Shown in pieces: positions 39,044 to 64,000 of a DNA stretch of 64,000 nucleotides. The notes beneath the pieces are model-generated. The model saw only the letters and a list, made by a program, of their open reading frames with translations, had not been told where the DNA came from and did not search any database. The position numbers were made by a program, and so were the translations under genes. This DNA comes from Terricaulis silvestris (GTDB lineage: Bacteria; Pseudomonadota; Alphaproteobacteria; Caulobacterales; Aquidulcibacteraceae). The first letter of the stretch is position 1, and the number at the start of each line of letters is the position of its first letter. The stretch lies in NCBI RefSeq assembly GCF_009792355.1, contig NZ_CP047045.1, forward strand, positions 1,576,501 to 1,640,500, given 5' to 3'.

Positions 39044-39143
39044 AATATGGACCGCCGGCGCCTCGCCGGCATACGGAGCTTCAACCGCCGACGCGATTGC
39101 AGGATGAGCGAAGAAGCCGGCGAGGGCGCCGGCGGTCCATATT
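39044..39143. repeat. long inverted repeat overlapping the xth stop codon
   Basis: Perfect 19-base arms AATATGGACCGCCGGCGCC (39044-39062) and its reverse complement (39125-39143), extended inward by TCGCCGGC / GCCGGCGA with one extra base. The right arm ends inside the xth stop codon (39142-39144). A related half-copy (gcgccggcgtcctcgccgg) occurs at 53345-53363. No T-run follows, so an intrinsic terminator is not clear. Confidence 0.85.
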
Positions 39144-41587: not shown

Positions 41588-41590
41588 ATC

Positions 41591-41665
41591 GGCAGTAGGC
41601 AGTCGGCAATCGGCAGTCGTCAACAGATTGGCGCCCGATTGCCGACTGCCGACTGCCGATTGCCG
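41591..41665. repeat. inverted array of tandem heptamers
   Basis: Four tandem 7-mers GGCAGTA, GGCAGTC, GGCAATC, GGCAGTC (41591-41618), a short spacer, then four heptamers of the opposite sense GATTGCC, GACTGCC, GACTGCC, GATTGCC (41637-41664). A perfect 15-base pair is CGGCAATCGGCAGTC (41604-41618) with its complement at 41651-41665. It fills the gap between the Sel1-repeat gene and the nitroreductase gene. Confidence 0.9.
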
Positions 41666-44691: not shown

Positions 44692-45714
44692 ATGCTTTCA
44701 ATTGCCTTAGGCGTGCGCCAAGCCAAGCTCGACGCGGAGATGCGCGCGTTCTTCCAAGATGCGCGCCCGTGGGCGTTCATCCTCTTCCGCGAAGCCTGCG
44801 TCTCACGCGTTCAGGTGCAAGCGCTCTGCAACGAACTGCGCGAAGCCGCTGGTCACGACGCCATTGTCTGGATCGATCAGGAAGGCGGCCGCGTCGCGCG
44901 TCTCAAAGCGCCCGAATGGCCAACGTGGCCAGCTGCTGCAAAATATGGCGAGGCGTTCGCGCGCGACAATGTCACCGGCATCGAAGCGACCTATCTCGGC
45001 CACCGCCTCATTGCGCACGAACTAAAGTCCATCGGAGTCGATGGCGACTATGCGCCGGTGCTGGATGTGCCTGTCGAAGGCTCAGACAAAATCGTCGGCG
45101 ATCGCGCCTTCTCCGCCGAACCCAAGCTGGTCGCCACGCTCGCGCGCGCCGCGCTCGAAGGCTTGCACGATGGCGGCGTCGCCGGCTGCATCAAGCACAT
45201 GCCCGGCCACGGCCGCGCCACCGCCGACAGCCACCTTGCGCTGCCGCGCGTGAGCGTGAGCGAAGCCGAACTCATCAACGACATCTATCCCTTCACGCGC
45301 CTCGCCGACGCCGAAGCCGCGATGACCGCGCACATTATCTACGAAGCCTGGGATCCCGATCGACCCGCGACTTGCTCGCCGAAGGTGATCGACGAAATCA
45401 TCCGCGCCACCATCGGATTCGAAGGCCTGTTGATGAGCGACGACCTCGACATGCACGCGCTGCAATTTGCCATGAACGGCGGCCTGCAGCAGCGCGCCGA
45501 AACCGCGCTCAAAGCGGGCTGCGATGTGGTGCTGCAATGCTCCGGCAAGCTCGCCGACATGCAGGAAGCCGCCAAAGGCTGCGCCAATCTCACCGGCCCC
45601 TCCATGGTTCGCGCCCGCGCCGTGGAATCCTTCGCAAAACGCCCAGCGCGCGAATTCGACGCAGACGCTGGCTGGGCCCGTTTCAATCTGTTGATGAATA
45701 GCCAAACCAGCTAA
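44692..45714 (+). CDS. nagZ: beta-N-acetylhexosaminidase (GH3), peptidoglycan recycling
   Basis: 340 residues. GH3 signature KHMPGHGRATADSH at 168-181 with the catalytic His, IDQEGGRV near residue 61 and the nucleophile region LLMSDDLDMHAL. Cytosolic; cleaves GlcNAc from anhydroMurNAc-peptides during wall recycling. No signal peptide. The TAA at 45712-45714 is five bases before a long palindromic element. Confidence 0.95.
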   Translation: MLSIALGVRQAKLDAEMRAFFQDARPWAFILFREACVSRVQVQALCNELREAAGHDAIVWIDQEGGRVARLKAPEWPTWPAAAKYGEAFARDNVTGIEATYLGHRLIAHELKSIGVDGDYAPVLDVPVEGSDKIVGDRAFSAEPKLVATLARAALEGLHDGGVAGCIKHMPGHGRATADSHLALPRVSVSEAELINDIYPFTRLADAEAAMTAHIIYEAWDPDRPATCSPKVIDEIIRATIGFEGLLMSDDLDMHALQFAMNGGLQQRAETALKAGCDVVLQCSGKLADMQEAAKGCANLTGPSMVRARAVESFAKRPAREFDADAGWARFNLLMNSQTS

Positions 45715-45718
45715 AATC

Positions 45719-45824
45719 CGTCATTCCGGGGCTCGCGAAGCGAGAACCCGGAACCCAGGGGCAACCACACTGGTCTATGATCCCCTGGGTTCCGGATCGC
45801 GTGTCCCACGCGTCCGGAATGACG
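45719..45824. repeat. palindromic element, type A copy 1 (nagZ-scpA intergenic)
   Basis: 106 bases. Outer arms CGTCATTCCGG (45719-45729) and CCGGAATGACG (45814-45824); inner arms CCGGAACCCAGGGG (45748-45761) and CCCCTGGGTTCCGG (45782-45795). The same arm order, spacing and near-identical inner arms occur at 63508-63617 inside trmFO. It fills nearly the whole gap before scpA. Confidence 0.92.
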
Positions 45825-49071: not shown

Positions 49072-50493
<1,422 letters not shown>

Positions 50494-50510
50494 AGCGCGC
50501 CGGAAACCCT

Positions 50511-50622
50511 CTTCCTTGCGGAGAGGGTCGCCGCGCAGCGGCGGGGTGAGGGGCGTTCAAACGATCAGGCGCCGGAGCGGTTGAACGCCCCTCATCCCCT
50601 AGCCCCTTCTCCGCAAGGGAGA
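50511..50622. repeat. nested inverted repeat between serS and aat
   Basis: Outer arms CCTTGCGGAGAGGG (50514-50527) and CCCCTTCTCCGCAAGG (50603-50618). Inner arms GGGGTGAGGGGCGTTCAA (50543-50560) and TTGAACGCCCCTCATCCCC (50581-50599) with one unmatched base. Lies between convergent genes, so it may act as a bidirectional terminator; no T-run is present. Sequence family differs from the type A element. Confidence 0.85.
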
Positions 50623-53379: not shown

Positions 53380-53456
53380 GCCCTTCGACAGGCTCAGGCT
53401 GACGCTACTGGGATAGCGACGCCAGAAATGGCGTCACCCTGAGCCTGTCGAAGGGC
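53380..53456. repeat. inverted repeat upstream of the ArsR gene
   Basis: Perfect 19-base arms GCCCTTCGACAGGCTCAGG (53380-53398) and the complement at 53438-53456, with an internal GACGCCA/TGGCGTC hairpin at 53418-53435. A very similar CCTTCGACAGGCTCAGG motif is common across proteobacterial genomes as a dispersed repeat. It lies in the 215-base gap between the CDGSH gene and the ArsR gene. Confidence 0.88.
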
Positions 53457-62521: not shown

Positions 62522-64000
62522 CTAGGCCGCCGTTAGCCAGCTGTTCAAATCCTGTAACGCCCGCTCCGCCATCGCGAGCTTCTTTGCGCGCCCGCGCTCT
62601 TCGCCCTTGAGCTTCTTCCCGTCCGCCCCATGCGTCGGCGCGGCGATCTCCGGAAATAGCCCGAAGTTCACATTCATCGGCTGAAACGAGCCCTTGCCGC
62701 CGGCAATATGCCCGCCCGTCACGTGCGCAATCAACGCGCCCAGCGCAGTCGTGGCAGGCGGCGGTTCAATCGCACGCCCCAAACGCTCCGCCGCAGCAAA
62801 GCGCCCCGCCATCATCCCCATCGCCGCACTCTCGACGTAACCCTCAACGCCCGTCACTTGCCCCGCAAACCGCACGCGCGGCTCCGCGCGCAGACGCAGC
62901 GTGCCGTCGAGCAGCTTCGGCGAATTCAGAAACGTGTTGCGATGGATCCCGCCCAGCCGCGCAAAGCGCGCGTTTTGCAAGCCGGGGATCATGCGGAAAA
63001 TCTCTTCCTGCGCGCCGTACTTCAGCTTGGTCTGAAAGCCCACGATGTTGAACAGCGTGCCAAGCTTGTTGTCCTGGCGAAGCTGCACCACCGCATGCGC
63101 GCGCTTGCCGACGCGCGGGTCCAACAGCCCCACAGGCTTCATCGGCCCAAACCGCAACGTGTCGAGCCCCCGCTCCGCCATCACCTCGATCGGCAAGCAG
63201 CCTTCAAAGTAGGGCGTATTCTTCTCCCATTCCTTGAACTCAGTCTTCGCGCCCGCGTTCAGCGCATTGATGAACGCCACATACTGCACCTCATCCATCG
63301 GACAGTTCACATATGCGGCTTTGTCGCCGCCCGGACCTTCCTTGTCATAACGCGACTGCTTCCAAGCAATGTCGAAATCAATCGAGTCCGCATGCACGAT
63401 CGGCGCGATCGCATCGAAGAACGCGAGCGAGTCTTCGCCCGTGAGATTGCGAATGGAGTCAGCGAGGGAAGGCGAAGTCAAAGGTCCTGTCGCGAAAATA
63501 ATACTCTCGTCATCCCGGCCGGAGGCGCGCAGCGCCGTAGAGCCGGGACCCAGGGGATCGTAGAGCGCATCATTTGCCCCTGGGTCCCGGATCGCGCTCC
63601 GCGCGTCCGGGATGACGGAAAGGAGTTGATCGAGTGATTTGATCTCTTCGCGCTCCACCGTGATCAACGGATGCGCCACCAACGCCGCCGTCACCGCATC
63701 GCTAAACACATCGCGATCCACCGCCAAAGCGCTGCCAGCCGGCACCTGCGCCGGGCCAGCGCTCGCCATCACCAGCGAGCCCAACCGCCGCATCTCTTCA
63801 TGCAGCAGCCCAACAGCATTCCCGCGCCAGTCATCGCTACGGAACGAATTGGAACACACCAGTTCCGCGAACTTCTCCGTGTGGTGCGCGTCGGTTTTCA
63901 CCAGCGGCCGCATCTCGTGCAGCACCACCGGCACGCCAGCGTTCGCCAACGCCCAAGCGGCCTCGGATCCAGCCAAACCGCCGCCAACGACATGCACAGG
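62522..64000 (-). CDS. trmFO: methylenetetrahydrofolate-tRNA-(uracil-5-)-methyltransferase TrmFO, 5' partial
   Basis: At least 492 residues, reading in from the window edge: the codon before HVVGGGLAG is GTG in frame with a preceding Pro codon, so the true start lies beyond 64000. FAD loop [40 protein letters not shown] and the late [20 protein letters not shown] are diagnostic. Forms m5U54 in tRNA using folate and FAD. Between about visible residues 127 and 164 an extra segment is encoded by a palindromic element (63508-63617), making the protein longer than the usual ~440-470. Confidence 0.95.
63508..63617. repeat. palindromic element, type A copy 2, inside trmFO
   Basis: 110 bases. Outer arms CGTCATCCCGG (63508-63518) and CCGGGATGACG (63607-63617); inner arms CCGGGACCCAGGGG (63543-63556) and CCCCTGGGTCCCGG (63577-63590). 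Same architecture and nearly the same core as the nagZ-scpA copy. It is read through in frame by trmFO, encoding about 36 residues between [14 protein letters not shown] and [10 protein letters not shown]. Confidence 0.93.

Follow-up and report, generated by a model that had tools for sequence, protein, structure and literature searches.

The trmFO gene of the genome analysed here carries, in frame, a palindromic element that belongs to a dispersed repeat family, and in related species of the same Caulobacterales-like genus the corresponding loop of the enzyme is either empty or filled by repeats of at least four families. Very probably, the insert in trmFO arose when a dispersed self-complementary repeat landed in frame, and such landings were tolerated in disordered loops and then decayed, were replaced or were exchanged. 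The results go past the preliminary description of this DNA, which was made from the letters alone and dealt with a single palindrome and one further copy of it; the recurrence of several families at the trmFO site across species is found alike at linkers of the E2 acyltransferase. The window is the whole stretch of 64,000 nucleotides that was analysed, and the genome from which it comes (G000) forms one contig of 3.86 Mb. The features of the window to which we refer are the following.

39044-39143, no strand assigned: copy of family F, the family of E2 linkers and of RAYT unit ends
45719-45824, no strand assigned: second copy of family A, right after an ORF ending at 45714
53380-53456, no strand assigned: copy of family C, the same family as in trmFO of G038 and G057
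62522-64000, minus strand: trmFO; the match starts at genome position 1640506, about 6 nt past the window edge
63503-63619, minus strand: trmFO segment of 117 nt (39 codons), where uninserted relatives have an 18-nt loop
63508-63617, no strand assigned: palindromic element of family A (head-to-head pair of CGTC-ended hairpin units), 110 nt, inside trmFO

A palindromic element in the trmFO reading frame

The preliminary description had claimed a nested palindrome of 110 bases within trmFO, and both the arms and the folding of shuffled sequences bear this out at 63508-63617. The outer arms (63508-63521 and 63604-63617, 14 nt) are 93% complementary and the inner arms (63540-63556 and 63577-63593, 17 nt) are 94% complementary. 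Folded alone as DNA, the element reached -45.3 kcal/mol, compared with a shuffle mean of -25.6 (z -7.8), and the coding-strand RNA of the element reached -74.9 (z -7.4); none of 200 shuffles was as good in either fold. An arm pattern that was drawn up after the element had been seen matched once in the window and not once in 100 shuffles. Searching 63400-63720 against Rfam detected no family at gathering score, and five sub-threshold matches to miRNA and snoRNA entries in this interval were taken as chance.

The reading frame is open across the element, as had been proposed, and two curated models identify the product as TrmFO (NF003739, 653 bits with a cut-off of 262; TIGR00137, 533 bits with a cut-off of 429). 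The protein as used here has 494 aa, and one trmFO was found in the genome. An added segment had been claimed at a place where typical TrmFO has a short link; it measures 117 nt in the window genome against 18 nt in 12 of the 27 genus members in which the loop could be read, which amounts to 33 extra codons. The TrmFO of Thermus thermophilus is the closest solved structure by sequence as well as the closest PDB structure by fold, and its residues 129 and 130 adjoin across the insert site. In an AlphaFold2 model (40 sequences, mean pLDDT 80), the insert forms a low-confidence segment, with pLDDT below 50 at residues 130-163 of the 492-aa window protein, and is predicted to sit between a helix and the strand leading into ATGPLTS. 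A second stretch of the model with low pLDDT covers residues 218-227.

The element is dispersed in the genome. With the two strands taken together, family A gave 41 match rows at E<=1; 19 copies with both arms complete, 96-108 nt long, could be delimited, the one in trmFO among them. The second occurrence that had been reported within the window, and placed by that description between nagZ and scpA, has the same layout as the trmFO copy. At E<=1e-3, a match was present in 29 of 30 genus genomes and in 47 of 60 genomes of the taxonomic family. CGTC stands at both ends in 15 of the 19 complete copies, and AGTC occurs in L006, L016, L023 and L026. All 19 are head-to-head pairs, as the search required two inverted ends and left single units uncounted. 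Judging by eye, CCA follows the first unit, and the hairpin loop is longer and is itself paired. Also by eye, a change in one arm goes with a change in the other from copy to copy (GTCATCCCGG with CCGGGATGAC, GTCATTCCGG with CCGGAATGAC, GTCATTCCAG with CTGGAATGAC, and GTCATCCTGG with CCAGGATGAC), as in a family that may be maintained by its pairing. Two 14-mer matches to the CGTC pattern in open frames (L030, L031) were non-palindromic and were discarded.

The TrmFO loop across the genus

TrmFO gave one match in each of 58 of the 60 family genomes, which are mostly drafts; across the genus, two proteins with three sites were followed. The segment is not common to all relatives. Of the 27 genus members with a readable loop, 12 show a length of precisely 18 nt and G049 one of 27 nt; the other 14 hold inserts of 33-159 nt that keep the reading frame. 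Assigned by motif expressions that were composed, for the trmFO and the E2 families, after the sequences had been seen, the inserts comprise family A in eight species, B in three, C in two and D in one. Family A occupies trmFO of G000, G050, G041, G035, G059, G044 and G039, and persists as a 33-nt hairpin remnant in G045. It is read in phase V-I-P in G000, G050 and G059, and in phase R/S-H/R-P/S in G041, G035, G044 and G039. Family B (TCCTCCCCCGC..GCGGGGGAGG and variants) is found in G042, G043 and G048, the G042 insert being assigned from its sequence because the motif expression missed it, family C (GCCCTTCGACAA..TTGTCGAAGGCC) in G038 and G057, and family D (CCCTCCCCGCGAGGGG..) in G056. For all inserts except that of G043, that is for 13 of 14, the fold surpasses those of 99 or more of 100 shuffles.

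Families C and D recur in the genomes that carry them and in others. With both strands and the trmFO copy included, C gave 37 match rows in G038, 29 in G057, 50 in G059, 20 in G000 and 1 in G034, and D gave 66 in G056, 62 in G048 and 7 in G000. Family B is thinly documented outside trmFO: a strict pattern matched there once in G000 and three times in G048, matched G043 at trmFO alone, and had no match in G042 or G056. Outside the genus, no trmFO insert was seen in any of the 24 readable genomes among 30 family members. Of the best 80 of 583 contig-database loci, all but one (79) show the short loop, and the odd one out, L074 from a Caulobacterales MAG, shares its loop peptide with G043.

The history of the insert was followed on a species tree of two genes, both near trmFO, which we take to be serS and accC; several of its nodes are weak. 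On this tree G050, which carries A, is sister to G036 with an empty loop, and G043, which carries B, is sister to the empty G031, each with support 100. A tree built from the TrmFO core, with the insert region removed, likewise pairs G050 with G036 (100), and it pairs G000 with the empty G058 (98). Over the 27 tips, the insert state requires 13 changes where shuffled labels require 12.5 on average, and insert presence alone requires 9 where they require 9.2; the insert state at trmFO shows no signal on the two-gene species tree. In the SerS-like protein, residues ~227-268 are divergent in G033, G051 and G037 (L213, L214, L212) compared with other genus members, and no repeat peptide was obvious in that segment.

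G000 and G050 have unusual codons in common over 60 nt on either side of the insert, and their local-over-global identity around it ranks first of 325 pairs (z 3.08). Between the sister species G050 and G036, identity of ~0.93 drops to 0.67 at the insert and recovers beyond it. The second-ranked pair, G042-G055 (z 2.80), has no insert in common, and other same-family pairs rank 11 to 112 of 325, so that the strong mosaic signal is confined to one pair. Around the insert, G000 and G050, which are not sister species, have a short mosaic patch in common, and these flanks point to exchange in this one case.

Synonymous divergence is lower in the insert than in the core in four of five pairs, G000-G050 having 0.125 in the insert and 0.606 in the core; in G041-G035 the insert value (0.646) exceeds that of the core (0.518). 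Stem pairing may have held down part of the low synonymous values. Over the five pairs, pN/pS is 0.09-0.17 in the core and 0.41-0.56 in the insert, indicating that the enzyme is under purifying selection and that constraint in the insert is relaxed.

E2 linkers and a proposed origin of the inserts

One copy of family A in G033 falls inside the E2 acyltransferase, between the lipoyl and E3-binding domains; Pfam detects lipoyl, E3-binding and catalytic domains in this protein. All genus genomes but one (29 of 30) yielded E2, with linkers that were readable in 28. Linker 1 contains a family motif in 22 of these 28, namely A in nine, E in nine and F in four, where E (GGACCGCCGGCTTCCAGCCGGC.. and variants) and F (GGACCGCCGGCGTCCTCGCCGGC.. 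and variants) are repeat types that occur beside A. In 21 of 28 species, 99 or more of 100 shuffles fold less well than linker 1, and the six linker-1 sequences of similar length that have no motif give z values of -1.1 to 0.7. The motif search flagged linker 2 in 10 of 28 species. The shuffle test was passed by eight of the 28, of which five carry B and three F; two of the flagged linkers failed it, that of G047 being a short fragment and that of G057 one arm by itself. The linker-1 state requires 12 changes on 28 tips against 15.1 for shuffles, 3.4% of which are as low. It carries some phylogenetic signal, which points to slower turnover than at the trmFO site. Pairs of linker 1 have pN/pS of 0.42-1.04. 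Some palindrome-free linkers have ends similar to those in species with A, as AARNDDG in G054 beside APRNDDG in the carrier G046, and these A-like ends probably reflect decay.

Repeats in open frames were also sought elsewhere. When 25 own-genome places of family A were checked for frames reaching 30 codons or more to both sides, three complete copies besides the trmFO one proved to have such a frame (L002, L014, L015); the trmFO copy is the one among the 19 that is placed in a recognised gene. For families B, C and D, 5 of 17 places in this genome have a frame of 50 codons or more on both sides, and one of these five, L283, matched no Pfam family. From the A matches listed in five relatives, trmFO copies excluded, 41 places were sampled (G033 14, G050 6, G059 14, G056 6, G057 1), and nine of them have a frame of that length on both sides: one, the E2 copy of G033, interrupts a recognised gene internally, and another touches the start of a PaaD-like gene. 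At this last place (L302, G050:C6 ~17.27-17.35 kb), the end of the A copy appears to provide the ATG start. A scan with exact 13-nt arms, which overlooks decayed copies such as the E2 one, found 19 palindromes over 464 kb of own sequence (20 stretches and the window), and at three of the 19 the frame again reaches 50 codons or more to both sides: trmFO, 717678-717747 and 307135-307199, the last belonging to no family. The palindrome at 717678-717747 (L358) is of F type, in a frame that is open on the plus strand for 100 codons before it and 410 after it. Within the window, a palindrome of ~78 nt made of GGCAGTCGGCAATCGG-like units lies at 41588-41665, outside families A-F. Nested inverted repeats at 50510-50622 (TCTTCCTTGCGGAGAGGG / CCTTCTCCGCAAGGGAGA around a second pair) are D-like by eye and directly follow the ORF 49081-50493.

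The course of events that we propose would begin with a family A copy landing in the flexible TrmFO loop, with a net length divisible by three and the frame open. In the 19 own A copies, 58 of 114 frames are stop-free, from which roughly one random landing in six would leave a gene open. Selection would purge landings in folded parts and retain those in disordered loops and interdomain linkers, and such selection for tolerant places would cause the same few sites to be refilled, across species, by unrelated families. The inserted peptide would be a relaxed, disordered spacer, presumably neutral. Afterwards the segment would decay, give way to another repeat, or cross between species by short-tract homologous exchange. 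Arrival was presumably by transposition, with insertion coming first and decay later; against this course stands that by eye the trmFO inserts showed no target-site duplication.

We regard it as unlikely that the segment has instead been domesticated, with the peptide or the mRNA hairpin being useful, for example in translation pausing, expression control or protein contacts, and kept by selection. Such a role would agree with the presence of an insert in 14 of 27 readable species, with the very stable fold predicted for the mRNA and with pN/pS below 1 in all five trmFO insert pairs; conserved stem pairing, however, could depress pN/pS by itself. Moreover, the peptide varies between families and phases, the loop is empty in 12 of the 27 species, presence follows the tree no better than shuffled labels do, and the six motif-free E2 linkers attain a similar length without unusual pairing.

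It is distinctly improbable that the DNA of loops and linkers is a preferred target of the repeats and that recurrence reflects target choice more than tolerance by the protein. The same loop is used by unrelated families, A enters it in two reading phases, and by eye the flanks of the other 18 complete A copies show no obvious common target. What speaks for directed insertion is the likeness of junctions within a family (A in G000 and G050; the left junction of B in G042, G043 and G048) and a CAA codon that stands three codons before the insert in all eight A carriers, four of which have ATCAAATC upstream, but shared flanks may have been exchanged together with the insert.

A single ancient insertion per protein, followed by losses instead of repeated gains, would account for the common junctions and some flanking codons of same-family carriers and for the weak phylogenetic signal in the E2 linker-1 state, but it is very hard to credit, as every loss would need to restore a loop of exactly 18 nt in each of 12 species, four families and two phases demand several events, the G000-G050 insert is far less diverged at synonymous sites than the core, and all readable family members outside the genus lack the insert.

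Relation to known repeats and candidate movers

Protein-coding palindromes are already known as the palindromic elements (RPEs) of Rickettsia and as intragenic REPs. The preliminary description had likened the trmFO element to RPEs, and this holds as regards the way of working, that is, palindromes coding for extra protein segments. The accessible text of a 2024 review describes RPEs as dispersed palindromes of ~150 bp that lie in frame in protein genes and add a peptide segment (PMC10969869). Palindromes here likewise lie in frame in protein genes, at trmFO in 14 of 27 species and at E2 linker 1 in 22 of 28. The hosts, in contrast, are not Rickettsiales, most complete A copies lie outside recognised genes, and unrelated families use the same orthologous sites.

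Family A is more closely comparable with the CGTC REPs. In the accessible part of their description, these have CGTC ends and a CCA-like tail, form head-to-head pairs, with head-to-head dimers predominating, occur mainly in alpha-Proteobacteria with intragenic examples, and have a stem of 8-9 bp with a loop of mostly 4-5 nt; other loops are given for Bradyrhizobium and two more species, the REPs are described as having no linked tyrosine transposase genes, and those of R. conorii are equated with RPE-6 and RPE-4 (Di Nocera et al. 2013, PMC3733652). Family A agrees in its CGTC ends (15 of 19) and in a RAYT link in none of 24 loci; its complete copies, sought by two inverted ends, are head-to-head pairs with CCA after the first unit by eye, and its hairpin loop is long and paired and not of the 4-5 nt mostly reported in the accessible part of that paper. 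By its sequence we class family A as CGTC-REP-like, outside assignment to the four published families (CGTC-1 to 4). The same accessible part gives one case of same-site use, in recB of two Xanthomonas, with other genes hit at different sites, and raises flexible linkers or loops as a possibility for intragenic REPs (PMC3733652). The enterobacterial ERIC and RU elements are small mobile sequences that lie inside genes and carry reading frames, as the accessible text on them states (Delihas 2007, PMC2759123). They differ from the repeats described here in sequence families and hosts, and the accessible text has nothing that we could find on recurrence at orthologous linkers (PMC2759123). In the open-access literature searched, the accessible part of PMC3733652 included, we met with no account of palindromes that occupy linkers of trmFO or E2. 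As far as these literature searches show, the finding that, outside Rickettsia, unrelated families have repeatedly come to fill the same orthologous linkers is new.

In the accessible text of the 2024 review, the share of palindromic elements in new or changed Rickettsia proteins is called unexplored, and a like mechanism elsewhere is considered conceivable (PMC10969869). The landing of dispersed repeats at tolerant sites, which we favour for trmFO, can be followed here at orthologous sites in 27-28 readable species that are not Rickettsia, where an empty state (at trmFO), several kinds of insert and decayed-looking sequences are found; with sister species as controls, these states open to direct test the idea that disordered linkers originate from repeat DNA, and TrmFO and E2 are two enzymes suited to such a test. 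More tentatively, and as a possibility about which we have some doubt, mobile palindromes may be the chief supply from which interdomain linkers and loops throughout the genus keep gaining new sequence, with at least six families (A-F) that share disordered sites of core enzymes, decay, overwrite one another and pass between species as short patches. If so, such linkers would turn over at about the pace of species formation.

RAYT-type transposases (PF01797) were found in 16 of 30 genus genomes, and PF01797 had no match in the window genome. At 24 loci examined from 34 listed matches, 13 RAYT genes are bracketed by inverted E or F arms, 12 of them F-like and one, in G048, of type E; two of the 12 F-like loci have GGAGCGCC instead of GGACCGCC, and one is diverged. 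The E/F-ended units are ~0.58-0.75 kb long. Three more loci have arms of other kinds, and in the remainder arms were short or not found, some of these loci being cut by contig ends. The F-like and E arms at the 13 loci resemble terminal inverted repeats of the RAYT unit, and since they bracket the gene, E and F in the E2 linkers look like the two ends of a unit without its gene. This recalls the MITE-like TIRYT elements of Di Nocera et al., as E and F resemble the two ends of the ~0.58-0.75 kb units joined together. The likeness covers E and F. The A motif, in contrast, flanks RAYT at none of the 24 loci examined of the 34 listed matches, and its arms are unlike the terminal inverted repeats there. 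The E/F-ended units point to a candidate enzyme for part of the repeat traffic, and for E a link to mobility is suggested by one RAYT unit and a few loose arm matches.

That unit of G048 (L391, C208) has its RAYT gene between 25-nt family E-type arms, the repeat of E2 linker 1 in nine species. In G059, an F-ended RAYT unit (L183:1250-1837 and flanks) lies at the start of a gene, presumably ubiA, and a flanking stretch of ~38 nt that takes in the gene start is imperfectly present on both sides of the unit.
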